A program made the translations under genes and the position numbers. 64,000 nt of DNA from Subtercola endophyticus (GTDB lineage Bacteria; Actinomycetota; Actinomycetes; Actinomycetales; Microbacteriaceae). Location: NCBI RefSeq assembly GCF_021044565.1, contig NZ_CP087997.1:3658001-3722000 (forward strand), written 5' to 3'. Below are positions 38,426-60,846 of this stretch, in pieces. Numbering within the stretch: the stretch's first letter is position 1; each line of letters opens with the position of its first letter. Below the pieces are notes generated by a model, which was not told the origin of the DNA, ran no database searches, and worked only from the letters and a program-made list of their open reading frames with translations.

Positions 38426-38427
38426 CC

Positions 38428-39605: not shown

Positions 39606-39627
39606 TGGCTACTCCGACGCGCACTCT

Positions 39628-40143: not shown

Positions 40144-40472
40144 TGCCAAATCAAAGAAAGAGATTTTTGCGTCTGTGGGCCGTCATCGGATTAGCAGCGC
40201 TGAGCACCGTTCTGTCGACTACTGCCCTGTACGCAGGCGGCAACCTGAGCGTCCTCTTGCTGTCAGCCATTCTCGTTTTTCCCTTCAGCCCTTTCCCGCT
40301 GATTGTCATTTTCTTCCTTTCGGTACCCCTGATATTGATCTTCGGACAGACGACTGGCCTAGTTCTCCTTCTTCTATTTCTTTTCGCAGCGAACCTGCTC
40401 GCCGCCGGGCTCCAGCTCGTGCTCTTACATGCGGTACGCAAGCGCTGGATGAAAGCTCGGTCGAAGTTGTGA
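40143..40472 (+). CDS. Small three-helix membrane protein
   Basis: 109 residues from ATG 40143, coupled to the preceding gene by a TGATG overlap. Three hydrophobic stretches (LWAVIGLAALSTVLSTTAL, FPFSPFPLIVIFFLSVPLIL, GLVLLLLFLFAANLLAAGL) between basic ends. Lower GC than the backbone. No family recognised. Confidence 0.6.
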   Translation: MPNQRKRFLRLWAVIGLAALSTVLSTTALYAGGNLSVLLLSAILVFPFSPFPLIVIFFLSVPLILIFGQTTGLVLLLLFLFAANLLAAGLQLVLLHAVRKRWMKARSKL

Positions 40473-40603
40473 GCATCATGAAGCGCTTCGATCGAGACCC
40501 GCCGCAGTACACGACGACCGGATGCAACGCGTCTTCATCACCAACGTGCCGAATGAGTTCTGACTAGTGCGAAGCTGTTCGGCTCGCAGAAACGGAGGAT
40601 GCC

Positions 40604-40849
40604 ATGGTTCTAATCGGAATCATAAAAATTGCCATTGGTTTGGTTGTGTTGGCTATCAGCATCGCGGTCTACCGACATCGGAAGTTCATAGCGAACGCAA
40701 ACGCAACCGCTCTCACGAACTTTTTCGGCAAGCTCGGTGCTGCACCTGCGAAGGCCTCAACGCCAAAATGGATTGGATTTACCTCGATAGGTGCAATGAT
40801 CGTTGGCTCAATATTCATCATCCAAGGAATATCCAACCTTGTCTCCTAA
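40604..40849 (+). CDS. Two-helix membrane protein, family member 2
   Basis: 81 residues. ATG 40604 follows CGGAGGATGCC. Helix 1 (GIIKIAIGLVVLAISIAVY), basic loop with ANANATALTNFFGKLGAAP, then KASTP and helix 2 (IGFTSIGAMIVGSIFIIQG). Aligns with the 37362 and 40901 proteins through the A-N-A..FFG..G..A..ASTP pattern. Candidate orphan immunity protein by context. Confidence 0.65.
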   Translation: MVLIGIIKIAIGLVVLAISIAVYRHRKFIANANATALTNFFGKLGAAPAKASTPKWIGFTSIGAMIVGSIFIIQGISNLVS

Positions 40850-40900
40850 CTACGGATTCCTGTCGTCGCGTAGCTGGAGTCCTATCGATGGAGCGCCTGG

Positions 40901-41143
40901 ATGATTAGCGGTAACTGGACAGGACTCGTTGCTGGCATTCTCATCGTGCTCGCCGGGATCGTCATGGTCTTTGGTCGGAAAAGGGTTGCTAAGTGGAATG
41001 CGGAGCAGCTTCGTGCTTCCCGTGCGCCGACCCGCGAGGCGGCTGCGAAAAACTCGACGCCCGAGCGTTTTTTGCTCATAGGGATCGGCTTCATCGTCTT
41101 CGGTGGCGTCACCGCGTGGTCCTGCATCGTAGCCTTACGGTGA
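40901..41143 (+). CDS. Two-helix membrane protein, family member 3
   Basis: 80 residues. ATG 40901 has GGAGCG upstream. NWTGLVAGILIVLAGIVMVF is close to helix 1 of the 37362 protein (NWAGLIVGVVVVLGG). The loop AKWNAEQLRAS and AAAKNSTPERF match the family plan. Directly follows member 2, as a tandem pair. Confidence 0.65.
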   Translation: MISGNWTGLVAGILIVLAGIVMVFGRKRVAKWNAEQLRASRAPTREAAAKNSTPERFLLIGIGFIVFGGVTAWSCIVALR

Positions 41144-41324
41144 ACCCGTCGGGCCACGTAGATTCAGGGCACAGGGTGACAGATCTCTATCCACGGCTAC
41201 GGTCATCACGACAATCCTCGTCGTCGACAACGTTGAATCGTAGTGGGGAGACTGCTGAAGGATCTCGGCGTAGCGAAATCAGCGCTCAGCGCAAGCATCG
41301 TGGTGAGTTTGAACAAAGGACTCG

Positions 41325-41439
41325 CATGCAGATAAGCCACGTTCCGATGCTCGTTGGCGGAATCGTCCTGGTCATATCAAGCGTCCTGATCATTCGCCCG
41401 GCCTCGCCGGTGCCGGTCTTCCAGGATAAGGATCATTGA
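41325..41439 (+). CDS. 37-residue single-helix peptide
   Basis: ATG 41325 follows AACAAAGGACTCGC. The peptide has one hydrophobic helix (MLVGGIVLVISSVLII) and a short polar tail. It stops one base before the ATG of the next membrane protein, suggesting cotranslation. Small membrane peptide or remnant of a two-helix gene. Confidence 0.45.
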
Positions 41440-41440
41440 C

Positions 41441-42031
41441 ATGACCGCATTCAGGCGAATCATCTGGTGCCTCTTGGCAGTAGCCGTATTGGGTTTGGTT
41501 GTTAGGGCAATCGCCAGTCCCGATCCGGGTTCCGTTGGTACTTTTTCGAGTCTCCTTGGAGCGCTCGGATTAGTTGCTCTCGTCGTCGTCGCGGCCGCTG
41601 CAGGGTCGTCAATCAGAATTGCATCACAAAACCGGTCGCTGGAAGACCTTAAGGCGACGACGCGTTCACCGTTCGGATTCGTAGCGCGTCTCAGGTCTGA
41701 GACATACACGACGATCAAGGCGTCGAGGGCGGCCTTGAAAAGGCCGATTGGCTCGAGTGCTCTCAACGTCGTAGCGTCCGAAGAAGCTCTCGAAATGTAT
41801 TGGCCTTTCCGGTCCTCGCCGCAGCAACATTTTTTATCGCTGGCGTGGGACGACATTGTCCAGATTTCGTCGATTCGCCATTCGCTTTTGTTACCTGGCG
41901 AGATCGTAATTTTCGTCTCTGATTTCGTGGAACCCATCAGCCTGCTTGTCGTGTCTAGGTCACTTGTGAGGCGCCAGTCAGAAATTGATCAAGTAGTGGC
42001 TACGCTCAAGACTTTTGTGCACACCCATTAG
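41441..42031 (+). CDS. Membrane-hairpin protein with soluble PH-like domain, member 2
   Basis: 196 residues from ATG 41441 with AGGATAAGGATC upstream. Two helices (IIWCLLAVAVLGLVVRA and LLGALGLVALVVVAAAAG) precede a soluble domain (NVVASEEALEMYWP, FLSLAWDDIVQISSI) with the same order of strands and final helix as the 38428 protein. Paralogous by architecture; function unknown. Confidence 0.6.
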   Translation: MTAFRRIIWCLLAVAVLGLVVRAIASPDPGSVGTFSSLLGALGLVALVVVAAAAGSSIRIASQNRSLEDLKATTRSPFGFVARLRSETYTTIKASRAALKRPIGSSALNVVASEEALEMYWPFRSSPQQHFLSLAWDDIVQISSIRHSLLLPGEIVIFVSDFVEPISLLVVSRSLVRRQSEIDQVVATLKTFVHTH

Positions 42032-42108
42032 GTCGTCTCTCAGGCGGAGGAGTGCTTGCGTTCGCATGAGTTCAATTCGCGACTGGGGAAGCACTTCCGC
42101 ACATACAC

Positions 42109-42267
42109 ATGACGAGGAGCTTGAGAAGGCGGGGAAACGCCTTCACCGCCATCCGGGTGGTCGACGGCGGCTTCTATTGCTGGGCTCGCCGACAGAGGGA
42201 GCTTGTCCGCGAAGTGCGAATGGTAATAGAGGAGGTGGCGCGTGGCACGAGTCCTGATTCCAGGTAG
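42109..42267 (+). CDS. Possible 52-residue ORF, function unknown
   Basis: ATG 42109 to TAG 42267. The protein is basic then helical (AFTAIRVVDGGFYCWARRQ, ELVREVRMVIEEV). There is no clear ribosome site and it overlaps the next gene by 26 bases. It could be a short gene or the end of a decayed one. The flanking 42032-42241 stretch holds nothing else recognisable. Confidence 0.25.
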   Translation: MTRSLRRRGNAFTAIRVVDGGFYCWARRQRELVREVRMVIEEVARGTSPDSR

Positions 42268-42703
42268 GTCGGCGGGCGCGCTGGCCGTGACGCAAAACAC
42301 TCTCGCCTGCATGACGTTGACTCTTTACGCTGCTCTGATCTTCGCCTTCATTCTCGATGCACAAAACTACAAGCCGCTCGGGTTGATCGTCGTCTTCTTT
42401 TTCCTCATTTCGGGGGCGTTGTGCGGGTTTGCGACGCTCATTCTGAGCGTCGTTGTTTCCTACCGAGCATCGAATGAGATCAGCTATGGGTATACGACGC
42501 TACCGAGGCGAAACCGACACGTTGAACAGCTCGATCCTGCGACCGGGCGAACAATAAGCGCAGCCGGAGAACCGTTTCTCGACTCCGCAACTAGTAGGCA
42601 ACGCATTGCTTCGGGGTTTGATTTGTCTGCTGACGGGCGCGCGCCAATCATTCCGGCGTACACAAGCACCCGCCGGTCTTGGTGCAGTATGTGGCGACCG
42701 TGA
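42242..42703 (+). CDS. Membrane protein with probable C-terminal frameshift
   Basis: 153 residues from GTG 42242, after GGAGGTGG. Two helices (LACMTLTLYAALIFAFIL and GLIVVFFFLISGALCGFA), then a soluble part with SNEISYGYTTLP. The read frame ends RRSWCSMWRP. A shift of frame near 42655 continues as HKHPPVLVQYV and a further hydrophobic helix (TVISALGAILVVLVRLG) to TGA 42756. The intact form was probably ~171 residues with a third helix. Last gene of the low-GC array. Confidence 0.55.
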   Translation: MARVLIPGRSAGALAVTQNTLACMTLTLYAALIFAFILDAQNYKPLGLIVVFFFLISGALCGFATLILSVVVSYRASNEISYGYTTLPRRNRHVEQLDPATGRTISAAGEPFLDSATSRQRIASGFDLSADGRAPIIPAYTSTRRSWCSMWRP

Positions 42704-42850
42704 TCTCTGCCCTCGGCGCGATTCTCGTCGTGCTTGTCAGGCTGGGGATCATGTGACCATCAACAGAACCCGTCATGCTCTAGATTCGACCGGGACCTGC
42801 CCAAGTAGGCTTGCCAGGGGCACAGAAACACCTCGAGTGAAAGTCAGGCG

Positions 42851-43639
42851 ATGAGCGACGACAAGGCGGGCAAGCGCGAGAACGCTGCGCGGCAGGCCGC
42901 CGACAAGGCCGCGAATAAGAAGGCCGCGCGTCAGAAGGCGAAGCGCGAAAAGGCGGCTCGCGCGGCGTCGAAGAGCGCTTCGAAGAACACAGCGAAAAGC
43001 ACCTCGAAGAAGGGCGCCAGCAAGCGCGCCCGGCGCTCGTACTTTCCCGTGGATGCCCCCACCGTCGCCCGGGCGGTAGAAGAGGGCGTGCTCATGTCAC
43101 GCACGGCCCTCACGATGGCCACGATGAACCACATCATCATCGGCGCCGTGCGAGACAAGGTCGACTACGACTCCGCCGAGGTGCGCCGGTTCGTCGAGGC
43201 CGAGTTGCATTCGCTCGCGCTCGAGCAGGCGGGGCTGGCCGAGCACATGAAGAACCTGCAGCTGGAGTTTCCGCCCATGCCGAAGAAGTCGCGCACGGTC
43301 GCCGACTACCAGTGGCTCACGCAGCGAAGAGTCACGTACTCGGCACTCTCCTCTGAACTCGCGCAGCTGCAGCACGACGACGCCTTTCTCGACGAGGCGG
43401 TCGACGCGTCGCAGAAGTGGGCGTGGTCGGAGCTGAGCCGTGCCATCGAAGGCCAGCTGGATGTCACGGCCGACCTGCGCTCCTCGCCCGACTATGCCGC
43501 CGAACGCGAAGAGCGTATGCGCGAGCTGCGTGAGGTCGACCTCGCCGCGCTGATCGCCGCGGCCGAACTGGATGCTGCTGCCGGCCCTCTCACGATAACG
43601 CCAGAGCCGAAGCGCAAGCAGGGCAGAATGGAGCCATGA
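42851..43639 (+). CDS. Conserved-looking protein with Lys/Ala-rich N-terminus, function unknown
   Basis: 262 residues. The first ~62 residues are a basic Lys/Ala/Arg tail of repeated AAR, KAA and SKS units, like histone-tail or nucleic-acid-binding extensions. The rest is helical and charged (HSLALEQAGLAEHMKNLQL, EREERMRELREVDLAALI). High GC and C-rich codons mark a return to backbone. ATG 42851. The stop overlaps the start of the hydrolase gene. I do not recognise a family. Confidence 0.7.
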   Translation: MSDDKAGKRENAARQAADKAANKKAARQKAKREKAARAASKSASKNTAKSTSKKGASKRARRSYFPVDAPTVARAVEEGVLMSRTALTMATMNHIIIGAVRDKVDYDSAEVRRFVEAELHSLALEQAGLAEHMKNLQLEFPPMPKKSRTVADYQWLTQRRVTYSALSSELAQLQHDDAFLDEAVDASQKWAWSELSRAIEGQLDVTADLRSSPDYAAEREERMRELREVDLAALIAAAELDAAAGPLTITPEPKRKQGRMEP

Positions 43640-48559: not shown

Positions 48560-48649
48560 GGAGCTGTCGCATAGTTCGGCCTAGTGCACCACCCTGCTAA
48601 GGTGGAGTGCCCTTAATGGGCACCGTGGGTTCAAATCCCACCGGCTCCG
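48560..48649 (+). tRNA. tRNA-Ser (anticodon GCU)
   Basis: The acceptor GGAGCTG (48560-48566) pairs with CGGCTCC (48642-48648) including one G-U. The anticodon stem CCACC/GGTGG (48589-48593/48601-48605) encloses the loop CTGCTAA, anticodon GCT at 48596-48598, reading AGC/AGU. A long variable arm (GTGCCC/GGGCAC) confirms the serine class. The T arm is GTGGG-TTCAAAT-CCCAC. Discriminator G at 48649; CCA is not encoded. Confidence 0.97.
48627..48645. other. Putative attachment site, left (within tRNA-Ser 3' end)
   Basis: GGGTTCAAATCCCACCGGC in the T arm and acceptor stem matches GGCTTCAAATCTCACCGGC at 60775-60793 in 17 of 19 positions. tRNA 3' ends are standard integration targets. Confidence 0.65.
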
Positions 48650-48990
48650 CTCGTAAAATGCCTGATCAGGGCGCCGGTTCGTGCTCACACGGTCGAGTCT
48701 GCCCGCAACTCAACCACTTCATGTGATTCATTCGCTTGTTTGATCGCGACCAGGCTGTGCATCTCGGGGCTCTGGCTCCGCGGCTCGGCGAGATCAATTC
48801 TTGTGTCTCAAGAAGTCCTCTGGGTGAGCGTGAGACGCGCCGGTCTACGAGACGAGATTTCGAGACATCAGCACCGGCCCAATCTCGGGTGACTTTACCG
48901 CGAAGATCAGGTGCCCCCGATGACTCATAATCCATTAGGTTTTCGAGACAGCCCGCAACAACTAGAACGTAGCGCGAACCGCGCTGCTTG
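48650..48990. other. Left island junction without a recognisable gene
   Basis: 341 bases between the tRNA and the end of the DUF262 gene. The sequence has several GAGAC/GTCTC-type words (for example GTGTCTC, GAGACGCG, GAGACGAG, TCGAGAC) but no ORF with a credible start, no RNA structure I can support and no integrase remnant I recognise. Confidence 0.5.
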
Positions 48991-50736
48991 TCATTTGGGG
49001 TCGCGCGGCCAACACAGAATGGCAAGTGCCGCCAGACCACTTTGACGATCGGCGATGCTCTTTTCGGTCCAGTCTGCCCAGACTGACGCCTCGTTAGTTA
49101 ACTCAATAGATGACGACGCCAAAATGGGCTGCTTCGCTGCCCAAGCCTTGTTCCCAATTCGGGCGTTCTTCCCCCTCTGAAGCAGGGCATGATTTCCCAC
49201 CCGATCGACCCAAAGCTTCTTGCCGTCGGCAGTGAAGGACGGCCACTCCGCTTGTTTCGCGTTCTTGGGGAGAATGTGCTCCAGATTAACCGCGTCAACG
49301 TCCGCGTTCACGACCAGTTCAGGGTCAAAGTCACCCCTCTTTTGAAGCTCAAGCGCTCGGAGAAGGTAACGCGAAAGCTTGGCCGTCGTTTTCCATTCAG
49401 CAAACTCAGCTCGGAATAGTTCATCGGAGGGAATGAGCGATCCGATCTTTGTCTTGGTTAGCAACTCCGCCGTCGAGGTAACGGATTTTTTGCGGACCTC
49501 TAAAGCCGCTTCACAGAACGCCGCCTCAGCCACACCTCCACTCAAGCTCCCTGCGCACAACATACGCACAGACCACGAAACGAGAGTGGTCATGAACTTC
49601 TCGATTTCCTTCGTCGAGAATGTCGGAATGACGGCCATAATGAGTGGCCGATAGCGTTCGATTTGTAGGTCAGCGATCACATCAGCAGCATTGGCTACTT
49701 TCGCTGAATAATCTCCCCAGAAGTCACTATCGGAGTGCAAGATGGCGTAATAGAGTCTCGATGCGGTCTCAAGCTCCAGGGTGAATTGCACGGCGGACGC
49801 CGAGTCGAACACGATGCTCTTCAGCTTGCGATAGACGTCACGTTCACGAACGAGACCATACTTTGAACTGAGCAGATGGCGGGCAAAGTTAGTGAAGGAT
49901 TGATTTCCCACTTTCTCGATCCCCAGGTTACTGAGTGTGAGGCTCCAGTTTTTTTGTACCTCCGCCAGGCGCTGGTCACCCGCTTGGCTGAACAGATAGT
50001 TTTTGAGCAGGTCGGCGACCGTTAGATCAGCGCCTCTATCGTTCAGCGTTTCGAAGATCGAGAAGGCGTCTGACTCGCTGGGCACGGTGATTGCGACGAC
50101 CTGCACTTGCTTGTCGAGCCACGTCTCGAGTTCCGCGAGCTTCGGCTCCCAACTGGTGCCGTGTGCCTTTGCGAACTCGTCGACGCGATCTCGCAAATAC
50201 AAATATGCAGATTCGATGAGGTTCTGGCTGAACCCGACCGGCGTGACGTCCTGCCTTCGCACAACCCGGTTCTCGTAAAACTCTCGGTCGTCGGTATTGA
50301 GGATCAATTTTGGTTGGTCCTTTTTTGCTACCTTGTCGTACTTTCCGAGGTAATCGGATTGAGTCGATGCCGCTGCGGCCGGCTCGCCGCCGGACTCACA
50401 TTTGTCGCGAATCGCTGCCAACAGCAGCGATGCAGTGGCGAGACGCTGTTGCCCGTCGATGATCAAGTCACGACCAGCCCCACCGACTCCATCCGCGGCA
50501 ATCACGACCGTTCCCAAGAAATAGCCGGCCTGATTGTTGAAACTTGCGTTCAGGTCTTCCCAGAATTCCACGACTTGGAACTTGTCGTCGGGGCCGATGC
50601 TGGAGGCTGCGTCTTTCTGGGCAGTAACCCACGAATAGGAACGCTGATAGATCGGGACAGCGAGAGATCGAGTACGTAAGAGCTCGGCAACGCCGAGGGC
50701 CTTGTAGTCTAAGAAGTTTTCTTGAGGCACAACCAC
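48991..50736 (-). CDS. DUF262/DUF1524 (GmrSD-like) defence nuclease
   Basis: 581 residues from GTG 50736 with TAGGAG upstream. The DUF262 domain has VPIYQRSYSW (~27-36) and IDGQQR (94-98 DGQQR), the ParB-like nucleotide-hydrolysing signature. The C-terminal DUF1524 domain carries NLEHILPKN with His487, the His-Me-finger nuclease motif, and NHALLQRGKN. Single-chain fusions of this type include type IV restriction enzymes that cut modified phage DNA, such as GmrSD and BrxU. It lies at the tRNA-proximal end of the island. Modified-DNA specificity is inferred from family. Confidence 0.87.
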   Translation of the reverse strand: MVVPQENFLDYKALGVAELLRTRSLAVPIYQRSYSWVTAQKDAASSIGPDDKFQVVEFWEDLNASFNNQAGYFLGTVVIAADGVGGAGRDLIIDGQQRLATASLLLAAIRDKCESGGEPAAAASTQSDYLGKYDKVAKKDQPKLILNTDDREFYENRVVRRQDVTPVGFSQNLIESAYLYLRDRVDEFAKAHGTSWEPKLAELETWLDKQVQVVAITVPSESDAFSIFETLNDRGADLTVADLLKNYLFSQAGDQRLAEVQKNWSLTLSNLGIEKVGNQSFTNFARHLLSSKYGLVRERDVYRKLKSIVFDSASAVQFTLELETASRLYYAILHSDSDFWGDYSAKVANAADVIADLQIERYRPLIMAVIPTFSTKEIEKFMTTLVSWSVRMLCAGSLSGGVAEAAFCEAALEVRKKSVTSTAELLTKTKIGSLIPSDELFRAEFAEWKTTAKLSRYLLRALELQKRGDFDPELVVNADVDAVNLEHILPKNAKQAEWPSFTADGKKLWVDRVGNHALLQRGKNARIGNKAWAAKQPILASSSIELTNEASVWADWTEKSIADRQSGLAALAILCWPRDPK

Positions 50737-50867
50737 GAGAACTCCTACCGTTTCGGTAACGACCTACCCGACAATAGCGCTTCTGGTAGTTCATTCGCTT
50801 TCGTTCAAAGGCGGTTAGGGGGCCCCGTAGACCCTTCGCACCTCGGCCCCGCCTGTCCCGTAAGAAG

Positions 50868-51866
50868 TCATGACGCGGAGTCACCCTCGACTGGGCCACC
50901 TTCAACTAACTCAGTGAGACGGCGCAAGACGGCCACAAATTCGCTTTCGCGAAAGGAGTCGCGGATCGTGCTTGTTCTCGTCAACGCGCGGCCGATCGCG
51001 GCATCGACGTCACCCGAACTTGCGTTGTCCGAGTATGTCTTGAAGAAGGACACCCAATGTTTGGCCTCTATGCCCGCAACGACAGTGCCGAGCATCTGTT
51101 CGCAATAGTCCTTCATAAGGCCGGGCACGCGGGCTATCCGGCCGAAATTGCCGCCGCCGTCGTTCTTCGGCTTGTCCGACATGTTCGTCTTACCCGCAGG
51201 GTATGGGACGACGTCTGGCGGGGAGGTGATGCCATTGTCGCCTGTAGCTTTCGAACCTCTCAGATTCTCCCAGTAGTGGTTTCGAAGGTCTGCAGCGTGC
51301 TGGGCCTGTTCGATGAATGGCTCGTACACGACAGGAACTCCTGAGAGCACGTTTGAGAGCCGCCACGGAACCACTACCAGCAAGTCGTATGGCGTCGCTG
51401 CGTTTCGGGTCGCCGTATAGCGGAACGAGGGTTCTCCTTCTTTGCTGAGCAGGTACCAGCCCTTTAGTTCGATCCCGAGCACTGGTGATGGCTCGCCTGC
51501 CGATCGGCTCACCAGGCGAACGTCGGGGAAGGACTGACTCGAACGTTCGAACCCGTACTCGTCCCATTCGTTGTCGGGGTCCCACACCCCGCGGATTCGA
51601 TTCAACGTCGAGACAGTCTGGACCTCAATCGTGCCGCCCAGAACGCTGTTCAATGAGAACAGGTCGCCTGCCTCGAGCCCCTCGATGGAGGTTGTGGTCT
51701 GGAAATAGATCGGGAGGGACAACAAGGCATCGCGAACGTTGCCGACCAGCTTCTCGCGCTTTGGGTCGTCGCCCGGGAACTCGACTCTGGTTGGCCTGGC
51801 CACAGTTGCTGCGTGAACTGCCGGCGGCAACACTGAATTGGACGCGGCAGCGTCCGATCCAGTCAC
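50868..51866 (-). CDS. Restriction endonuclease-like protein (PD-(D/E)xK)
   Basis: 332 residues from GTG 51866, which overlaps the methyltransferase stop by four bases (GTGA). SFPDVRL (Pro114-Asp115) and GIELKGWYLL (Glu133-Lys135) form a PD-x17-ELK active site in a strand-turn-strand context. The C-terminal half is helical. Gene order and coupling to a DNA methyltransferase make it the nuclease of a type II system. No catalytic residue is missing, which is notable because the partner gene is interrupted. Confidence 0.78.
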   Translation of the reverse strand: MTGSDAAASNSVLPPAVHAATVARPTRVEFPGDDPKREKLVGNVRDALLSLPIYFQTTTSIEGLEAGDLFSLNSVLGGTIEVQTVSTLNRIRGVWDPDNEWDEYGFERSSQSFPDVRLVSRSAGEPSPVLGIELKGWYLLSKEGEPSFRYTATRNAATPYDLLVVVPWRLSNVLSGVPVVYEPFIEQAQHAADLRNHYWENLRGSKATGDNGITSPPDVVPYPAGKTNMSDKPKNDGGGNFGRIARVPGLMKDYCEQMLGTVVAGIEAKHWVSFFKTYSDNASSGDVDAAIGRALTRTSTIRDSFRESEFVAVLRRLTELVEGGPVEGDSAS

Positions 51867-52903
51867 GCGTTCACCGCTGTCAGTACCGTCGAACTATTTG
51901 CGGCAGCGCGTAACCGGCCTTCGGCAAGATCCTGGAATGACTTGTGGATCTCGGCTACGTAAGCGCGACGGCCAAGAGTTACTGCCGCTACTGACGCGGA
52001 CGCCAGGCCCCCGAATGGTTCCCAAACAACGTCTCCAGCGTTGGTGACGGCCCCGACTTGTCGTTCCATGAATTCGAGCGGTTTTTGATTCAGGTGCGCG
52101 GCGGAAGCGAGAGAGGGGTTGTGAACGCGTGGCGCAGACCGCTCCATGTTCCCCTTAACCCGTTCTGAATCGTGCAAAGAAGGACGCGACCACACGTTTG
52201 TAAGCCCGTGTGCGTGATTCCATGTATATCGAAGGGCGTCCCACTCGGGCGCAGTCACTGCGTTTTCTCCGTCGATGGAGAAATATGGGCGGCCATCGCG
52301 GTTACCGTGTTCGAGCGCGTACGCGGCCAGTTTTTCGACCATGGCGCCTGGTGGCCAATACCACAGCCAGTCCTGAGTCAAATATTTCCGAGTCGCCGCG
52401 TTCTTCACCCCGCATGCCTCGTTCGCACGATTGAGCGCGAGGCCCGCGCGCTGCCATTCGTGCCTCAACCAAACTTTCGGGCTCATCGGCCCTTCGGGTG
52501 CGTCGATCATGAATCGCCGCTGGTACAGAACCAAGACCTCCGACACAACGGGCATGCGCCGAATGGTCTTGCCGTTGACGTTCCCAGCGATGTGGGATAC
52601 ACCCTTATCCCAGGTGATGGTCTGCACGTACTCCCAACCGTGAGCAACTAGCAGTGGGTGGACTGTTGCCCAGCCGATCTCGGTATTCCAGAACCACAGG
52701 GTGCTCGCCGGGGTGGCAGCCATATCCCAGGCCGCGACGTGAGGGCGGTACCAATCGACGAGGTCATCTACGCCAGTGGTGTCTCCGTGAAACCCACGGA
52801 CCCCATACGCACCGTCTGAGATGATCGTGGCGGGCGCCGGCCATGACGAATACGCCTACAGGACGTTCCCTCGATACAGTTCGAAAGGTTCTCTTAGATT
52901 CAC
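51863..52903 (-). pseudogene. DNA methyltransferase with in-frame amber codon
   Basis: The gene starts at GTG 52903 behind AGGTGG and reads MNLREPFELYRGNVL, then TAG (52856-52858, codon 16), then continues in the same frame as AYSSWPAPATIISDGAYG to 51863. Motif IV is DGAY (codons 30-33), motif I-like EPFGGLASASVAA is near the C-terminus, and LNQKPLEFMERQV is motif X, so it is an N4-cytosine/N6-adenine type enzyme. The first in-frame ATG after the amber is codon 61, beyond motif IV, so reinitiation would give a defective protein. Either a nonsense mutation, a sequencing error or readthrough. Confidence 0.8.
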
Positions 52904-53020
52904 GACTACCACCTAATTAGAGTAGCGACGAAGCACCGGCGTTAGGCGGCCCGGCTCGCCGCCACATTGATGTGACCTGGGCTAAGGGGCGGGTCTGTGG
53001 AACTAGGACCGATTTTCGGC

Positions 53021-53587
53021 TCAGCGGGTGAGGCGAGTGCCACAGCCTACGCAAATCACGGCGCTGAGGGTGCAGTCTCGACCACAGCCATTCCAATCCC
53101 TGCAGGTGTGACACTCTTCCTTATCGTGCTCACTGCCCGCAGCTTTCCAGCACCCGTTGCAAATCCACGAACCCCCACTATTTCTCCACGGCGGTGCGTG
53201 CTTTTGACTCCGGAGGTGGAACGGATCGATTACGTGGTAAGAACCCCACGATGTGTAAAGGCTGCCGCCAGACTCAACGTGCAGACGATGCTGCTCGTAC
53301 TCGGCGCTGATCCAATCAAGCTCAGCTTGGGCTGCGGCATGTTTGCCCAACGCTGCTTCGAATGCGTCCGCGTCGACGAGCCACCGGTTGCCGATTTTCA
53401 GGATCGGCACACTCGTAGATTGGCCTCCGACGAGCTGCCGGGTATCGCCGAAGTCTGCTTGACCCCGCCGCTGAGCTGCGCTACGCCACCAGTCGTAAGA
53501 ATTACGCGGTGAGCCAGGCTGTCGTTGAAACCGTTCTAAGGCATCGCGCAACGGAATCGTTGTGAGGCCACCAGACACCAAGCCCAT
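53021..53587 (-). CDS. Zinc-ribbon protein, function unknown
   Basis: 188 residues from ATG 53587; ATG 53671 would add 28 residues of unusual Cys/Arg-rich sequence. The N-terminal part (IPLRDALERFQRQPGSPRNSY, VPILKIGNRWLVDADAFEAAL) looks like a small DNA-binding or excisionase-like helix-turn-helix unit. The C-terminal part has Cys pairs CNGC, CHTC, CGRDC and CVGC, enough for two zinc ribbons. Lies in the island, facing away from the ApeA-like gene. Might regulate the island; not shown. Confidence 0.6.
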   Translation of the reverse strand: MGLVSGGLTTIPLRDALERFQRQPGSPRNSYDWWRSAAQRRGQADFGDTRQLVGGQSTSVPILKIGNRWLVDADAFEAALGKHAAAQAELDWISAEYEQHRLHVESGGSLYTSWGSYHVIDPFHLRSQKHAPPWRNSGGSWICNGCWKAAGSEHDKEECHTCRDWNGCGRDCTLSAVICVGCGTRLTR

Positions 53588-53803
53588 CGCTTCATCCAAT
53601 CGTTTCGCCAAGCATAGATTCTGCGTCCGACACTGACGGGGCACAGACCTCACCGGGCAATGGGCCCTCATGGGTGATCTTCGAATTCTTTTCGGACATC
53701 CTGCTTCGGGTGAGAGTCGCTGACGTCAGTCCGCCGGCGATTCCTTCTTGTGCATCACACCTGCCAAACTCACTACAAATGAGAAAATGATTGGAGCGCA
53801 ACT

Positions 53804-55195
53804 GTGCAGCGCTTATACGGTCTGTGGTGGGAGCCCGGCAGCAACGACAAGGTACCCGGCGTCCTCACGGTGCACGACGACGGTGGCGGCGAACTCGAAC
53901 TGGTCGGTGGCTTCGTACTGCGCGAATTCGAGGAACCCGTGCCTGGCATAACTACCTGGCCTAACAAGCGCCGTGATACTCCTGTGCTTCTCGGCGACGC
54001 CGACGGGAAGCGAATCACGCTCGTCAACTGTATTCCCACTTTGACCCGAGGCGGACTCGGCGATACCCCAACGTTTCAACGGTTCCTAAGTGACCAGGTA
54101 CTGATCGGCGCCTGGCTCGAGGCTCGAGACGAGCCCGCCTTTCGTGACGCCTACATCAGACTTGAAAACCTCACCGCGTGGAGCGCACTCAAGTCACTCT
54201 CTTACACCGTGGATCGATCGAAGGAGAATGGTTCAACAGCCACCATTCGGCCAAGCGAAGAGGAATCCGTCGAGGTCGACGGGTGGAAATACACGTTATC
54301 GATGTCGGAGCGAGGTTTTCGGTACATGCGCACACGGCAGACCACCACTGTGTCAGGCGACGTCACTGCACGAGTCGTCGTACAGCCGCCCGACGGCACG
54401 TCAATGATGGAGATCAACCACCGCGTTCACGAGCTTTCAGACCTACTAACCCTAGCGACGGGTAAACCGAGCGGACTCATCTCGCTCACTTTGACGCACA
54501 TGGAAGCCGATGAGTGGACAGAACCACGAGGGTCGGACACTACTATCCACAAACTTCCCATCCCGGTCGAGGTGTTCGGCCGACGCATCTACGACGCGTC
54601 TCCAGACGAGCCGGCACACCCGACCCACGAATTCCGCTTCACACTTGACGACATGCCTTTCGCAGAACTGATGCCACGATGGCTGAAGATCCGACGTGAA
54701 AGCCCCGCCGCCTGCAACGTGTACTTCGGTTCTGAATACGCGCCTGCCACATACACCGAGATGCGCTTGTTTTCGATGGCGGTCTCCGCCGAGGCGCTGC
54801 ATCGTTCGTCCTTCGGCGAGAAAGGCGCCGACGCTTCCGACAGCTTCGTCACTGAAGCACGCAGCATCATCAAGAAGTCGTTCGAAAAGGGACCCCTCCG
54901 CGAGTGGGTGTTGCAACGCACGCAACCTGGAGCAACTTTCAAGGAACGAATGCACTACCTCGCCGCGGTACCCGATGCCCAGGCTGTTGCAACCCTGATA
55001 CCCGACATCCCAGACTGGGCTCGGAAGCTGACCGCAGCTAGAAACGGTGTGGCACACAACGCTGGAGAAAAAATTACCCCCGAGGCCAACCGGCTTTTTG
55101 CACAAACACGCAATCTAATCGCGCTCGTCATGATGAGCCGGCTCGGGTTGCCCGCTGCGACCCAGCTCCGGGCGGCGACCGAAACCATGCTCTAA
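53804..55195 (+). CDS. ApeA-like anti-phage HEPN protein
   Basis: 463 residues from GTG 53804 with TTGGAGCG upstream. The N-terminus (LYGLWWEPG, VPGVLTV, GELELVGGF) matches the ApeA N-terminal beta domain. The C-terminal helical domain ends with the HEPN ribonuclease motif RX4H: Arg413 and His418 in RNGVAH. Single-gene ApeA proteins protect bacteria from phage by abortive RNA cleavage. No partner gene is needed, and here it stands alone between divergent or convergent genes. Identification rests on both end motifs and length. Confidence 0.8.
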   Translation: MQRLYGLWWEPGSNDKVPGVLTVHDDGGGELELVGGFVLREFEEPVPGITTWPNKRRDTPVLLGDADGKRITLVNCIPTLTRGGLGDTPTFQRFLSDQVLIGAWLEARDEPAFRDAYIRLENLTAWSALKSLSYTVDRSKENGSTATIRPSEEESVEVDGWKYTLSMSERGFRYMRTRQTTTVSGDVTARVVVQPPDGTSMMEINHRVHELSDLLTLATGKPSGLISLTLTHMEADEWTEPRGSDTTIHKLPIPVEVFGRRIYDASPDEPAHPTHEFRFTLDDMPFAELMPRWLKIRRESPAACNVYFGSEYAPATYTEMRLFSMAVSAEALHRSSFGEKGADASDSFVTEARSIIKKSFEKGPLREWVLQRTQPGATFKERMHYLAAVPDAQAVATLIPDIPDWARKLTAARNGVAHNAGEKITPEANRLFAQTRNLIALVMMSRLGLPAATQLRAATETML

Positions 55196-55250
55196 TCGCC
55201 CAGGGCGTTGATCCTCGTTGTGCCGTTGACTTGAAGTGGTGCAAGCGTTG

Positions 55251-56117
55251 TTAAAGATCATCGTGGATAGGGCTGAAAGCAGTAAGGCCCGACTTCCGAG
55301 CTCGGAACAACATCGCCTGATCGTAGGTCGCCAGGGCGACGTTCTTAGCGTAAGCCTGAAGTTCTAACGCGCGATCGATGATTTCGAGGTCCGCGCTGTG
55401 GAGCCGGATATGGTCTGACTCGTCGATCAACAGAGTCGCATAAAGGTTGACTGACTCCACGCCTGAGCCGATCGTCTCCAGGGTGGTGAAGGTCGACTGG
55501 CCCGTGAATTCGCGGTCGAGCATCTTCAGTGCTGTGCGAGCAAGCGCACGCGCTTGCAGCTTGTCGCCATTCACATACATTGCGTTGTTGCTGTTCTTGA
55601 GTCGATCTAGCTCTTCCACCACGATTATCGGAATAGCTAGTGCGACTCCTTCGTGCGGGAACGCATCTACTGCACCATGCCAGGGGACGCTAGCAAGGTC
55701 CCCCGAATGCCGGAGAAGCGTATTCGTGTCGAGCACTATCGCCTGTTGGGCGGCGCCCGCCATTCCGAACTGGTTGATGGCCCACGATTGTGATCTTCGC
55801 CTTATCGAGTCGGCGGCAGCCTCGAAATCAGCTATCCGTTCCTGAACCTCCAGGGTGACGATCCCGACCAAAACTTGGCCACCAACTGCAGAAGTGTTCA
55901 CAGAAAGAAGGGACCAGTACCTTTGGGTGGTAATTAGCGAGTCCACTGACGACGGAGTGATATAGCTTGCTAGCACGCGCGCGTGTCGAGTTGCCCACTC
56001 TTGATACTCGCTGATCACCCTGCCGCCGCCCCCGAGCACGTTATTTGCTTCTCGCAGAGCTTCGGCAATCGCCTCGAGCAGTGACGTGGCCCGGATTCCC
56101 GGGCGAAGTTGAATCAT
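55251..56117 (-). CDS. PIN-domain protein with N-terminal helical extension
   Basis: 288 residues. Residues 1-~120 are helical, without recognised motif. The PIN nuclease fold follows with its acidic residues: Asp130 in IVLDTNTLL, Glu169 and Asp171 in VVEELDRL, Asp243/Asp248 in SADLEIIDRA and Asp266 in ATYDQAML. All four acidic positions of an active metal-dependent RNase are present. No small antitoxin gene adjoins it, so it is not an ordinary VapBC pair. It converges on the ApeA-like gene; a defence role is plausible. Confidence 0.8.
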   Translation of the reverse strand: MIQLRPGIRATSLLEAIAEALREANNVLGGGGRVISEYQEWATRHARVLASYITPSSVDSLITTQRYWSLLSVNTSAVGGQVLVGIVTLEVQERIADFEAAADSIRRRSQSWAINQFGMAGAAQQAIVLDTNTLLRHSGDLASVPWHGAVDAFPHEGVALAIPIIVVEELDRLKNSNNAMYVNGDKLQARALARTALKMLDREFTGQSTFTTLETIGSGVESVNLYATLLIDESDHIRLHSADLEIIDRALELQAYAKNVALATYDQAMLFRARKSGLTAFSPIHDDL

Positions 56118-56172
56118 ATTTAGACCGTAGCGTTACCCAGACGTCATCGAGCCAGCTCATTCCGAGACATGT

Positions 56173-56451
56173 CTAGTCCGGGAATGGCGGCTCATCTCCG
56201 TAAATCGCTGACGCCACCCGACGAGACGCCGCCATTCCTGCACGTCTGGACGAACTGGATGGGCTGCCAATTCGAGCCGAATTCGTCGATCGGTAGACAA
56301 CTCGATCTCGAATGATCGTGCCGGCGTAACGGCCAGCTGGATCGAACACCCGACCGCCGCGAATGCGGCCAAGGTAGATGCCCGAACGTGAAAACAACCG
56401 GTCGCCGTCCCGCTTGAGCGGTCGGCCCTGTTTCGTATATAGACGTTCCAT
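56173..56451 (-). CDS. Small beta-repeat protein (4-fold beta flower-like)
   Basis: 92 residues. The first ~56 residues show four short G-x-x-(L/V) strand-turn units (LYTKQGRPL, LFSRSGIYLG, VFDPAGRYAG, RVVYRST), the pattern of small beta-flower proteins. The C-terminus is Ser/Arg-rich. ATG 56451 has no strong ribosome site. Function unknown in any organism I recall. Confidence 0.5.
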   Translation of the reverse strand: MERLYTKQGRPLKRDGDRLFSRSGIYLGRIRGGRVFDPAGRYAGTIIRDRVVYRSTNSARIGSPSSSSRRAGMAASRRVASAIYGDEPPFPD

Positions 56452-56624
56452 TCTACGATCATGCTCCTGGCCACCGACACCCCTCAGACGTCGCGTGCTG
56501 TCGGGCCTTTAGTAGTGCCTGCCGTTTCGTATTTATTGTGAATCATGAAATCAGGCTCTTGACATAATCCCCGGTATCGGGCCTTCAACTGTGTGGTCTG
56601 ATTGCGGTGATGACGGACCATACG

Positions 56625-57056
56625 TCAAGTGCTCCTGAATGCCCTACCTTTGTCGGCGACGATGAGTGGGAGGCGGCGCTGCTCACGCGGCGGTGCCGGC
56701 CGCTCTCGCGGGTTTGGTTTGCTCCGCTGCCTGAGACGTCCGGCTGGGTGAACCGTCCCGGTTTTCATACCGACATTTGAAGCATAGTATCGCCGTCCGT
56801 AGTGCTCGAGGCTGTGAAACTCGAGGTAGATGTGCAGCCGGTCGTTGTTGTGCCCGTCGAACGGTGATCCTTTGGCTATTGCTTCGTTCTTATGCAACCC
56901 CATCGCGGTTTCCGCGGCGGCGTTGACATATCCTCGTATGAAGCTGGTCGGGATCAGCCGGTCAACTCGGGGGCCAAATCGAAGATTCGTGGCGGCGTCG
57001 ATTGCGGCCTTGTTCGAATGCAAATTCAGCGGATCACTGTATCGACGCATGGGCAC
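56625..57056 (-). pseudogene. IS3-family transposase remnant
   Basis: The frame contains GYVNAAAETAMGLHKNEAIAK, GSPF and NNDRLHIYLEFHSLEHYGRRY, recognisable as the end of the DDE domain of IS3/IS481-type transposases (usual form YxNAxAEx..GLxKxExI and YNxxRLHS.LGxxxPxEyE). About 20 residues between SPF and NNDRLH are deleted, the first part is scrambled and the N-terminal domains are absent. No terminal inverted repeats are visible. A dead insertion sequence inside the island. Confidence 0.75.
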
Positions 57057-57295
57057 CTGCTCCGGCCGAACTCGTCTTCGGGGTTGGAGCCGGATCTAGC
57101 GCGGCGAGGACAGGGCTGCGCGGGAGCTCCGAATCCTGATCACGCTCGTCTTATCACCTTCGTCTGTGTCGAATTGCGTCGGCACGTCAAATAGATTTCT
57201 TGACGACGTGGGGTGAAAAAAGCCATCATGATCGTTGGTGTGCCACGAGGCAATCGGATCTCCTCGGGCGGAGAACTTCGAAGCCGGAGGTAATA

Positions 57296-58666
57296 ATGCA
57301 ACGCTCTGACGCGGTGCTCTTCTCTGCGGCACACGGCTTCTACAATTTCGCTGTTTCGCGCAACACTTTCGACCGCAGCCTCTATTACAACTTGCTGCTG
57401 CAACCCGCACTCGCCATACCCGATCACTACTTTCTGCAAAAGTCATGGGTAGGAGCTCACCTCACCGAATACCGTAGCCGAGACTCGTGGATCGAGGTCG
57501 GGCTTCGTGGCGGATTCATTCAGCCCTACTTCAGGCGAGAAGGCAGCTCTTTGACATCCCTGCTTTCCGAGATGGAACGGACGGATCGGCGAGGGTTTGA
57601 CGATGCCGCCGAAGATATCGCCGACCGGTTAGACCGGACTTCGTTTCAGCCACTTCACTGGTCCTCAGGGACTAACTCGAAGACCTTTGGAAGTTCGCTT
57701 CAACGGTTTCTCGCTTACGACGAACCACCGGCTCTGGAATTTCAGGCCGACCCCGCCGATTTCAGAGGGTTCTGGTCGCGGAGCCGAGAATGGATTAGCG
57801 AGGAGCTCGACAGTGCAGCAGAGCGATCGTCCGGATTGCTGCAAGGCGACGGTATTCTCCTCAGTCAGCTGATACAAGTCGCTGGCGAACGCTTGCTGGG
57901 ACCGGACTGCGGACGAATTTCGAGTGTGGATGCGTTACTCACGTTGGTGCGTGAACGGGTCGGATACCAAGCGGCGCAGGATCTCAGGGTCTACCTGACT
58001 TGCGCTTGCGAACTTTACAACCGAAGCTTGGCCGACACGATCCTGACCGCGCCGGGTAGCCCGAGGTGGAGCTACTACGTCGCCGCGATGGACCTCTGGC
58101 TGGACGATGTTTCAACTATCCAGGAGGACATTGACCAGGAGGACCCCGAATCCCCGCATGTCTTCGATGTTTCAATTCAGCTGCCTCATGTCCAGCATCT
58201 CCGAAACGTCAGCGGCGACACATTGCTCGCAATCCGGAAGACAGCAGCTTGCGAACGCTACCTCGAGTCTTTGGCGTATTGGCGGTCAGCTCCGAAGAAC
58301 CAAACGCTTCAGAACGAGCTCGTAGAAACCCTCCATCGCTACACGATGGAGATCAAGAAGCTCGTCGGAAAAGAGGTCGGAGCTTTTGCGCTGAAGCCGC
58401 AATTCATATCGAACGCCATCGATGTCAGTCGGGTATTCAAAAAAGTTCCGAATGTGCTTCAGGGCTTTCTCGCGGTCTCCGTACCAACAACCAGCGCTGC
58501 CGCAGCCAGCGGACTCGCTTCCCCCTACCTGCCTGCTGGCCTTGCCACTCTTTTCGCGCTGCAAACCATCGTCAAGAATCGATCCCCAGCGCAATCTGTG
58601 GAGATAATGCTGTCCGATCTAGACGGAGCCAGAATGTACCCCGACGTGACCATCAGTCGCGCATAA
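57296..58666 (+). CDS. Unknown 456-residue protein, first gene of a three-gene operon
   Basis: ATG 57296 follows CCGGAGGTAATA. The N-terminus (FSAAHGFYNFAVSRNTFDRS) and centre are mixed helical and aromatic (SRDSWIEVGLRGGFIQPYF, FRGFWSRSREWISEEL). Residues ~390-425 are hydrophobic (VLQGFLAVSVPTTSAAAASG, YLPAGLATLFALQTIV) and could bind or cross a membrane. No motif of a known nuclease, kinase or effector is apparent. It is followed by a phosphatase-fold gene 28 bases on and a P-loop kinase, all on the + strand. Position in a defence island suggests the effector or sensor of an unrecognised system. Confidence 0.75.
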   Translation: MQRSDAVLFSAAHGFYNFAVSRNTFDRSLYYNLLLQPALAIPDHYFLQKSWVGAHLTEYRSRDSWIEVGLRGGFIQPYFRREGSSLTSLLSEMERTDRRGFDDAAEDIADRLDRTSFQPLHWSSGTNSKTFGSSLQRFLAYDEPPALEFQADPADFRGFWSRSREWISEELDSAAERSSGLLQGDGILLSQLIQVAGERLLGPDCGRISSVDALLTLVRERVGYQAAQDLRVYLTCACELYNRSLADTILTAPGSPRWSYYVAAMDLWLDDVSTIQEDIDQEDPESPHVFDVSIQLPHVQHLRNVSGDTLLAIRKTAACERYLESLAYWRSAPKNQTLQNELVETLHRYTMEIKKLVGKEVGAFALKPQFISNAIDVSRVFKKVPNVLQGFLAVSVPTTSAAAASGLASPYLPAGLATLFALQTIVKNRSPAQSVEIMLSDLDGARMYPDVTISRA

Positions 58667-58694
58667 TTTGATTCTGACTGACGCGACCTCGACG

Positions 58695-59360
58695 ATGACG
58701 ATTGCACGCCTGACATCCCAGACCACGGAACTCATTCTCGTGCGTCACGCAGCCAGTACGCGGGCACAGGTCGGCATCTGGGGCAGGCTTTATGATGCTC
58801 CCCTCGCCGAGGGGTTTGAGTCTCAGATGGCCTTAACGCGAAGTAAGGCCGACTTGCAATTCTTGAGCCGAGACCGGATTATTTCCTCGCCTCTTCGGCG
58901 ATGTCTCGAGACTGCCGCCTTCATCTTTCCTGGAACGGCGCCAGAGGTAGTTCCAGAATTTCGGGCATTTCACTCCGGAGATTTTGAGGCGGTAAGCGAG
59001 TCGTTCATCCAGCTCAACTACCCTGAGTACCTCGACATGACATTTCGGGGCAGGTTCTTGAACCCGAGACACGGCGAGGAGAGCATCGAAGCTCAGGTAA
59101 GACGCATTGCTCGCGGACTCGCGCGCGTCCTTGCCGATCACGACACAACTATAGTGATTGTTACTCATTATAGTTGTTTGAACATCATCGCCAACCTCGG
59201 TGTTCGGAACTGGGATATCAATAGCCATGCCGATGGCAAATACGACGTTGCCCTGGGTTCCTACTTCCGGCTCACTATTGATCCGGTGGCGGTTCTCAGT
59301 GACATTGAAGATCAACTGGCGGATGTCAGCGATGAGTACACAGAAGGGTTGTCACTATGA
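58695..59360 (+). CDS. Histidine-phosphatase-family protein
   Basis: 221 residues from ATG 58695; TTG 58668 is another start, neither with a good ribosome site. LILVRHAAST carries the Arg17-His18 of the phosphohistidine motif, but the usual RHG reads RHA. SSPLRRCLETA supplies the second Arg and VTHYSCLN the second His. The fold family includes phosphoglycerate mutases, SixA-type protein phosphatases and nucleotide phosphatases. Its stop overlaps the kinase start (ATGA), so kinase and phosphatase are produced together. Confidence 0.85.
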   Translation: MTIARLTSQTTELILVRHAASTRAQVGIWGRLYDAPLAEGFESQMALTRSKADLQFLSRDRIISSPLRRCLETAAFIFPGTAPEVVPEFRAFHSGDFEAVSESFIQLNYPEYLDMTFRGRFLNPRHGEESIEAQVRRIARGLARVLADHDTTIVIVTHYSCLNIIANLGVRNWDINSHADGKYDVALGSYFRLTIDPVAVLSDIEDQLADVSDEYTEGLSL

Positions 59361-60001
59361 CGGTGGATGAGTTGTTCGAGAGTCCTAGTCGGAAGTTCGT
59401 CGTGTTCGAGGGGTACGACGGTTCCGGCAAGTCGACCTTGATAAATGCCCTCGTCTCGTCCGAAGCGACCGGGTCGGTTCGGGTCGTGGGTCGGAAGAAA
59501 GAGTCGGAGCTCGTGGAGATCGCGAAGGTGTTGGAGCGAGACGATCTCCGGCCGGATCCGCGCGCTGAGATGCTTCTCCGAATTGCGGTGGAGGTGGAGC
59601 GACTGAACATTATTTCACGATCGCTGCTGACGCATGATGTTGTCGTGTGCGACCGAGGGCCGATCAGCATGATCGCCTGGTTTAGATACTTGGAGGTCCC
59701 TTCCAAGGCGTATGAAGGGCTCCTCGAAGAACTCTGGAGCTTTTACCGCGACTCGGTCACGGTCGTGTGCCGGGCAGATTTCGCTACATGCTGGCAGCGC
59801 TCGTCTGGCAGATTAGGTCAATCCCGCAAAGACCGACTAGGTGAGGACGCTAACCGGCGCTTCTTTGACCAGTATCAAGAGACCGTCACGTCCTCGGGCG
59901 CGTCGATCGCATTGATCGACATTGACACCGTGAATGCGGATGTCTCTACATCGCTGGACGAGGTACTCGAAGCGATGAGATCAAACGGCATTACTTCATA
60001 G
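59357..60001 (+). CDS. P-loop kinase (thymidylate kinase-like)
   Basis: 214 residues starting in the phosphatase stop codon. FEGYDGSGKST (17-27) is a Walker A of the deoxynucleoside monophosphate kinase type. VVVCDRGPISM (DRG 99-101) matches the DR(Y/G) substrate-binding motif of thymidylate kinases, and SRKDRLG resembles the lid. The host must have its own tmk elsewhere, so this copy is an accessory kinase. It may phosphorylate a nucleotide, a small signal or the partner protein. Confidence 0.83.
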   Translation: MTVDELFESPSRKFVVFEGYDGSGKSTLINALVSSEATGSVRVVGRKKESELVEIAKVLERDDLRPDPRAEMLLRIAVEVERLNIISRSLLTHDVVVCDRGPISMIAWFRYLEVPSKAYEGLLEELWSFYRDSVTVVCRADFATCWQRSSGRLGQSRKDRLGEDANRRFFDQYQETVTSSGASIALIDIDTVNADVSTSLDEVLEAMRSNGITS

Positions 60002-60196
60002 GCGGTCTGCAACGTTTTTGAGCGAGGCGACTGGGCAACGGCTGCGTTTTGCACGCACGCAGTTGTTCTGGCGATGTACAGCCTCTCAGGCATTCACTCC
60101 GACCACATGCAGCTTAAAGTCTTGAGGCTCATTTGCGCTGATAATCTATATTACGTCTCCATTGCGGAGAATCCGCGACGGTCGTGCGAGCAATGC

Positions 60197-60457
60197 CTAG
60201 TAGTGATCGCGGGCCTGGAGGATGACGATGTGGTTGTCTGTGACGTAGTAGACGAGCCGGTTTGCGTCGTCGATGCGCCGGGACCAGGCACCGCTGAGGA
60301 TGTGTTTCAGAGGTTCGGGTTTGCCGATGCCCGCGAACGGATCGCGGAGCGTGTCCGCGATGAGTTGATTGATCCGCTTCAGCGTCTTTCGATCCTGGGT
60401 CTGCCAGTAGACGTAGTCTTCCCACCCGTGTGCGTCAAAGGCTAACTCGCGGCTCAC
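60197..60457 (-). CDS. yoeB: YoeB-family mRNA interferase toxin
   Basis: 86 residues, the usual length. WEDYVYWQTQDRK and INQLIADTLRDPF are YoeB signatures. The C-terminal ARDHY keeps the catalytic His-Tyr end of the family. It would cut mRNA in the ribosome at start codons. The start overlaps the antitoxin stop by four bases. Confidence 0.93.
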   Translation of the reverse strand: MSRELAFDAHGWEDYVYWQTQDRKTLKRINQLIADTLRDPFAGIGKPEPLKHILSGAWSRRIDDANRLVYYVTDNHIVILQARDHY

Positions 60458-60705
60458 GCGTCAAGGAGGTCGTGCTTTTCGAACTCGCCTCGCCTGGCGC
60501 GCTCGATTGATTCGAGCAAGCGTTCCGCATTTGCTGGGTTGCGCAGCAGGTAAGCGGTCTCGGTCATGGCGTCGTAGTCGTCTTTCGACATGAGCACAGC
60601 GTTGCCATGCTTGGATACAACTTCGACGGCCGTGTGATCGTCGTTGACTTGCTGAATGAGCCCGAACAAGGTCTTACGTGCTTCCGTCGCGGTCAATGCG
60701 GTCAT
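60454..60705 (-). CDS. yefM: YefM-family antitoxin (Phd/YefM)
   Basis: 83 residues. TATEARKTLFGLIQQVNDDH is the DNA-binding Phd/YefM N-terminus and GNAVLMSKDDYDAM the second conserved segment. It neutralises YoeB and represses the operon. Upstream, GTAC-TGAATAGC-GTAC (around 60725-60740) is a probable autoregulatory palindrome. The module sits at the right edge of the island, where it would punish loss of the element. Confidence 0.93.
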   Translation of the reverse strand: MTALTATEARKTLFGLIQQVNDDHTAVEVVSKHGNAVLMSKDDYDAMTETAYLLRNPANAERLLESIERARRGEFEKHDLLDA

Positions 60706-60774
60706 GGTGTCTCCAAAAGTAATGTACTGAATAGCGTACCACTCAGTGTGATGTGCTAGGTCGGCTTAGTTCTA

Positions 60775-60793
60775 GGCTTCAAATCTCACCGGC
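60775..60793. other. Putative attachment site, right (degenerate tRNA-Ser 3' end)
   Basis: GGCTTCAAATCTCACCGGC matches 17 of 19 bases of the tRNA-Ser T arm/acceptor at 48627-48645. It lies between the toxin-antitoxin module and the terminator of the backbone gene beyond. Confidence 0.62.
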
Positions 60794-60796
60794 GCA

Positions 60797-60846
60797 CGAC
60801 AACCCCCGCACATCCCCGTGAATACAGGGAAGTGCGGGGGTTGTCG
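60797..60846 (-). terminator. Strong terminator of the binding-protein gene
   Basis: CGACAACCCCCGCAC (60797-60811) pairs perfectly with GTGCGGGGGTTGTCG (60832-60846), a 15-bp stem; the loop contains a further TCCC/GGGA pairing. It is 22 bases past the stop of the minus-strand gene. First backbone element after the island. Confidence 0.88.

Follow-up and report, generated by a model that had tools for sequence, protein, structure and literature searches.

The question raised by this locus is whether three adjacent genes, coding for a protein without a recognisable domain (P1), a histidine phosphatase (P2) and a kinase resembling dTMP kinase (P3), form a unit of their own, and what such a unit would do for its host. 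The genes lie on the forward strand of a 64,000-nucleotide stretch of the Subtercola endophyticus genome (contig NZ_CP087997.1), referred to here as the window, and a preliminary description of that window had proposed them as an operon within a defence island. Comparison of the locus with its relatives indicates that the three genes are one dedicated unit, which is probably a new defence cassette; phage defence is our best guess at its role, judging from its context, mobility and composition.

The three genes form one unit at four loci

Gene 1 (57296–58666, 456 aa) starts at the ATG at 57296, with a GGAGG motif at 57286–57290 as its likely ribosome-binding site, while the mechanically defined open reading frame (ORF) opens further upstream, at a TTG at 57200. 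Gene 2 (58695–59360, 221 aa) codes for a histidine phosphatase of branch 1 and has an alternative TTG start at 58668; we preferred the ATG at 58695 because ATG is the commoner start codon. Gene 3 (59357–60001, 214 aa) codes for a P-loop kinase resembling dTMP kinase. The stop codon of gene 2 and the start codon of gene 3 share the sequence ATGA (gene 3 start at 59357). The three reading frames and this overlap were thus as first described, and so were the residue numbers put forward for mutation, His18 in the 221-residue P2 counted from its ATG and Lys25 in the P-loop of P3.

Relatives of P1 with readable surroundings were found on a Streptomyces plasmid (L002), in Kocuria coralli (L003) and in Streptomyces tauricus (L004), the last two from a set of 84,980 species. 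In all four loci, the window included, genes 1, 2 and 3 follow one another in the same order. Genes 2 and 3 also overlap in K. coralli and S. tauricus, and on the plasmid they overlap if gene 3 begins at a GTG, or are separated by a short gap if it begins at a later ATG. When ORFs of at least 80 codons were compared across the loci (47–64 kb of the window and approximately 10–12 kb on each side of the others), the trio was all that they had in common, besides antisense shadows of the genes and an IS110 element that L002 shares with L004. The plasmid and S. tauricus copies match over 2,895 bp with 88.8% identity; the match opens roughly 200 bp ahead of gene 1 and stops just short of the end of gene 3. 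Their flanks are unmatched, IS110 being the sole other blastn match between the two. The GC content at third codon positions (GC3) of the operon is 0.58–0.70 in L002, L003 and L004, as against 0.76–0.89 in the directly adjoining ORFs, with genes called by a simple GC rule. Transposases stand on both sides of the operon in L002 and in L003, the latter with a small helix-turn-helix ORF in between and a TrwC relaxase 2.1 kb past the operon, and a resolvase follows gene 3 in L004. Since the flanks are unrelated and GC3 is low, the natural reading is that the cassette is apparently mobile and moves as a unit. Homologues occurring mostly as lone genes in housekeeping contexts would have spoken against the proposal, and the whole unit was found in each of the three other loci read.

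The window proteins are 58–59% (P1), 51–53% (P2) and 48–52% (P3) identical to those of the three relatives, P1 being the slowest to change. For L002 and L004, the sole pair in which dS is unsaturated for every gene, dN/dS was 0.17, 0.18 and 0.22 for genes 1 to 3, values that point to purifying selection on all three.

P1 and the kinase are similarly rare and diverge together

A search of 5.8 billion proteins returned at least 49 clusters of P1, the query and two fragments included; only candidates with the most words in common were scored, so some may have been missed. Among 394 genomes surveyed from the class, P1 occurred only in that of the window, and among 392 from the genus of S. tauricus only in S. 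tauricus itself; it was found neither in the phage collection nor in scans of viral contigs with P1 or its alignment as query. A profile of the operon kinase (E≤1e-13) likewise retrieved the window's own copy only from the 394 class genomes. The kinase subfamily is sharply bounded, with 27 rows below 1e-27 and the next at 3.6e-4.

As to whether the two proteins travel together, 13 of 26 kinase clusters share the size of their longest contig with a P1 cluster, or 13 of 20 when contigs of at least 4 kb are considered; this count includes the window's own pair and excludes the Kocuria kinase, which was paired by direct reading of L003. Distances among P1 proteins and among their kinases correlate (r 0.755 over 16 pairs, of which 13 were matched through coincident longest-contig size), with none of 5000 permutations as high, and r is 0.716 when L004 is left out. 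By these comparisons, P1 and the kinase subfamily are rare to a similar degree and diverge together.

The kinase has altered base-pocket columns and would keep its phosphate handling

P3 matched Thymidylate_kin (PF02223) at 4.9e-9, and both PF02223 and PF13521 scored above their cut-offs. The marks of a P-loop nucleotide kinase are kept throughout its family: all 28 operon kinases have Glu18, Asp21, Lys25, Arg46 and Arg100, as does the host dTMP kinase, and 27 have Asp99. With the host enzyme, P3 has in common the P-loop EGYDGSGKST, Asp21, Arg46 and the DR motif, but it reaches only 45.8 bits with the dTMP kinase model TIGR00041, whose equivalog cut-off is 83.25.

The difference lies in part at two columns that we take to line the thymine pocket of dTMP kinase. 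All 28 operon kinases have Arg75 and Glu79 there, where the host dTMP kinase has Tyr and Arg, 4dwj and 3ld9 have Phe and Arg, and 3lv8 has Val and Arg. At a third pocket column (Gln), one alignment shows Phe, Leu or Pro; the change is less certain here because a second alignment has a gap against the host kinase. P3 would thus keep phosphate handling with its base recognition changed, and since two pocket columns are altered in every member and the host genome carries its own normal dTMP kinase gene (tmk) elsewhere, dTMP is probably not its substrate. The earlier view of P3 as a kinase redundant for housekeeping stands in so far as the enzyme is additional to the host tmk; with two base-pocket residues replaced, a redundant dTMP kinase is unlikely.

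These features also bear on a further alternative, in which ordinary nucleotide salvage genes lie in the island by chance. Both enzymes do come from large housekeeping superfamilies, and public records name the kinase relatives dTMP kinase, thymidylate kinase or AAA family ATPase, but a unit found in one of 394 class genomes surveyed and scattered among unrelated neighbours, with changed base-pocket columns beside a host dTMP kinase, makes this explanation highly improbable.

The phosphatase retains its catalytic residues

P2 matched His_Phos_1 (PF00300) at 8.5e-21, with 74.9 bits against a cut-off of 21.7, and has the RH motif, second Arg and second His of branch 1 histidine phosphatases (CobC, PhoE, PspA-like). 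Arg17, His18, Arg69 and His158 are invariant in the four copies. The motif usually written RHG had been read as RHA, correctly so for the window; three of the four copies carry RHA, whereas that of S. tauricus carries RHG. We rejected RHA as the sign of a dead phosphatase, since none of the four has lost the catalytic Arg and His residues, and on the same grounds P2 should be an active phosphatase. Its nearest relatives are the CobC-type alpha-ribazole phosphatases, which provided both the best NCBIfam match (ribazole_cobC, 3.1e-19) and the best matches among PDB sequences. P2 differs from them in that it falls short of all the NCBIfam cut-offs listed, its best score being 69.1 bits where 162.9 would be needed, so that a substrate cannot be named from these scores.

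The first protein has no recognised relative

In agreement with the preliminary description, no significant match to P1 was found in Pfam, NCBIfam, PADLOC, PHROGs or PDB sequences. When 43 members of its family were searched against Pfam, nine families were returned with a best E of 0.038, which is chance level. AlphaFold predicted a mostly helical domain for residues 1–360 (pLDDT 83, pTM 0.81), followed by a C-terminal hydrophobic segment. Foldseek searches with the P1 model gave no significant match in PDB or BFVD, and the structural match to a metabolic enzyme that would have told against the proposal was accordingly not among the results; a VIA-align comparison of the full model lists mostly one helical region, 304–370, and carries little meaning.

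Many polar residues are invariant in the family (D97, R98, R99, E198, R199, E239, N242, R243, D308 and R314), a pattern that an enzyme or a ligand-binding protein would show. The most hydrophobic 19 residues fall in the C-terminal segment (aligned to 380–430) in 43 of 43 P1 proteins, and in the window copy the stretch, whose presence had been noted, spans approximately residues 386–426. The segment is possibly a membrane hairpin.

A proposed defence cassette and the explanations that compete with it

The mechanism that we prefer, tentatively, is a defence cassette with a kinase/phosphatase switch and P1 as its effector. The apparently mobile three-gene cassette would defend its host against phages as follows. 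The kinase would add, and the phosphatase remove, a phosphate on one small, probably nucleotide-like molecule that both would have as a substrate; the level of the phosphorylated molecule would switch P1; and infection would upset the balance, so that P1 would harm the membrane through its C-terminal hydrophobic segment. A more far-reaching version, which we consider doubtful, is that of a new class of immune signalling. In it, a non-standard nucleotide would restrain a membrane effector of new fold, with a retooled nucleotide kinase to write its phosphate and the histidine phosphatase to erase it; a phage disturbing nucleotide metabolism would fire the effector, and the kinase clade would have been reused elsewhere, for example on the viral contig described below (L009).

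Several observations weigh against the switch. The invariant polar residues of P1 would suit a product-forming enzyme just as well. As to the hydrophobic stretch, only 20 of the 43 members reach a 19-residue mean of 1.6; the window copy is weak, with a best value of only 1.23, and AlphaFold confidence in the segment is mostly below 50. The pairing of kinase and P1 clusters by coincident contig sizes is indirect. Finally, the defence context is clear in only one of the four loci, the window, and weak in a second. On the Streptomyces plasmid it consists of just a helicase with generic restriction and PbeA matches, and in K. coralli no defence match was obtained among the three neighbours scanned. 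Approximately 5–6 kb from the S. tauricus copy, L004:17658–20083 codes for two proteins, the first resembling alpha/beta-hydrolases and the second caspases (Peptidase_C14, 8.8e-8; PADLOC caspase, 8.2e-15).

The alternative that we place next is a biosynthetic defence. Here P1 would be an enzyme acting on a nucleotide-like substrate, and its product would be trimmed by the phosphatase and phosphorylated anew by the kinase to give an antiviral nucleotide analogue. Viperin, with a partner kinase, probably makes such an analogue, and P3 matches PADLOC VakA (1.5e-6), which we take to be a viperin-associated kinase; P1 is moreover better conserved than the other two proteins and rich in invariant polar residues. 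Against this route, P1 matched no radical-SAM or other enzyme family in Pfam or NCBIfam and no fold significantly, and its hydrophobic tail would be left unexplained. We regard the biosynthetic route as possible though rather unlikely, and place the kinase/phosphatase switch ahead of it.

A self-contained 2.9-kb unit without fixed neighbours, with overlapping genes and a rare, scattered distribution, would also suit an addiction cassette of the toxin–antitoxin kind on mobile DNA, with P1 as the toxin, the phosphatase and kinase as the antidote and no anti-phage role. Three genes, two of them for enzymes, nevertheless exceed the needs of an addiction pair, and the window copy lies among defence genes; we consider this explanation unlikely. 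Still less likely is self-protection, in which an antibiotic or antimetabolite of the nucleoside type would be neutralised by the kinase and phosphatase, with help from P1 at the membrane. The named hosts are all actinobacteria, a group rich in antibiotics, and the changed base-pocket columns of the kinase would fit, but the stretches around the four copies have no biosynthetic or transport genes in common.

The comparison defines a self-contained three-gene unit that joins a protein family without a recognised relative to a candidate enzyme pair, and the pair could set the level of a phosphorylated metabolite. Should the unit prove to protect against phages, what its kinase acts on would be either an antiviral nucleotide or an immune signal of a new kind, and residues for testing this can already be named from the sequence.

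Comparison with known systems

In the kinase–kinase–phosphatase module (KKP), which is carried on prophages, the balance of phosphorylation controls toxicity and phage defence (PMC11341870). The proposed switch would resemble it in this control and in carriage on mobile elements; it differs in that the KKP kinases are Ser/Thr protein kinases, whereas the operon combines a nucleotide-kinase fold with a histidine-phosphatase fold. No protein-kinase match was obtained for the three operon proteins with Pfam or NCBIfam. The likeness to Clover is a nucleotide-centred control of the effector (PMC12265719), but the HD dNTPase and nucleotidyltransferase given there were matched in no operon protein or scanned neighbour.

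Besides VakA, P3 matched PADLOC PDC-M51B (6.7e-8). Of the three proteins, the kinase alone matches a PDC-M51 model; neither P1 nor P2 has a PADLOC match, and no viperin is present in the operon; no radical-SAM match (Pfam, NCBIfam) was found in P1, P2 or the scanned neighbours. Systems validated in the DefensePredictor study include thymidylate synthase, dNMP kinase and 5-hmdU kinase domains, but the nucleotide-modification systems in the available part of that report (PMC13092281) comprise no histidine phosphatase or P1-like protein. The literature searched, which reached few subscription journals, held no account of such an operon.

A related kinase cassette on a viral contig

On a viral contig, L009:5894–8600 codes, in this order, for an enzyme resembling PEP utilizers, a protein with two transmembrane (TM) segments and a distant kinase with the EGYDG motif. 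This kinase, a distant relative of that of gene 3 (28%), scored 76 bits with the operon-kinase profile, compared with 26 for the host dTMP kinase and 42 and 49 for two thymidylate-kinase-like proteins. The middle protein has two C-terminal hydrophobic segments, with means of up to 3.1, and a weak PADLOC match to RexB (0.0084); in the viral contigs it matched only itself. With the L009 kinase as query, there was no phage match and none in 296 genomes at E≤1e-10, and the one plasmid match was the operon on the Streptomyces plasmid. Though a single example, the L009 set parallels the operon in joining a kinase of this type to a protein with a hydrophobic tail and an enzyme that handles phosphate, and the parallel fits a reusable module. 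By eye, the opposite-strand ORFs around the L009 cassette resemble phage head genes.

Genomic setting in the window

The operon lies in a low-GC stretch (48651–60800, right edge approximate) that begins after a tRNA-Ser gene (gct, 48560–48650, forward strand). GC per kb drops from 0.64, which is also the value for the whole window, to 0.54–0.60 right after the tRNA and stays low until approximately 60.8 kb. GC alone is no marker of an island here, because positions 38000–43000, to the left of the tRNA, are similarly low (0.54–0.59 per kb).

The tRNA is kept in all 12 genomes compared from the genus, counting the window's own. When junctions were compared using alignments longer than 100 bases (the regions of genomes G788, G795, G796 and G797 being shortened by contig ends), similarity to the window ended within two bases of the tRNA 3' end in nine of the 11 other genomes and extended 30 bases past it in one. 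The 3.4-kb contig of G788 shared 289 bases beyond the tRNA, to 48939, near its end, and may hold a similar island. These alignments indicate that the end of the tRNA is a variable junction in the genus. No stretch of at least 13 bases of the tRNA is repeated in the window, so that insertion at this site is suggested by the junction alone; no att repeat was seen, and there was no integrase among the genes of the stretch that were scanned. The DUF1989 gene on the right flank of the stretch is present in only two of 29 other genomes searched and so does not fix where the stretch ends.

The defence-rich setting that had been described was borne out by Pfam and PADLOC, which matched a GmrSD-type nuclease (PADLOC HEC-06, 2e-149), a restriction endonuclease/methyltransferase pair, an ApeA-NTD1/HEPN protein, a PIN protein and a YoeB/YefM pair within the low-GC stretch. 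The endonuclease was identified by PADLOC only (5.7e-7). ORFs 53021–53671 and 56625–57056 had no Pfam, PADLOC or PHROG match. The DNA methyltransferase (51863–52723) matches the N6_N4_Mtase profile in its second half only (123–220 of 221), and the N-terminal half of the protein appears to be missing or very divergent. The ApeA-NTD1/HEPN protein (53804–55195) matches the PADLOC candidate PDC-S58 (5e-28) and is possibly a single-gene defence system by itself.

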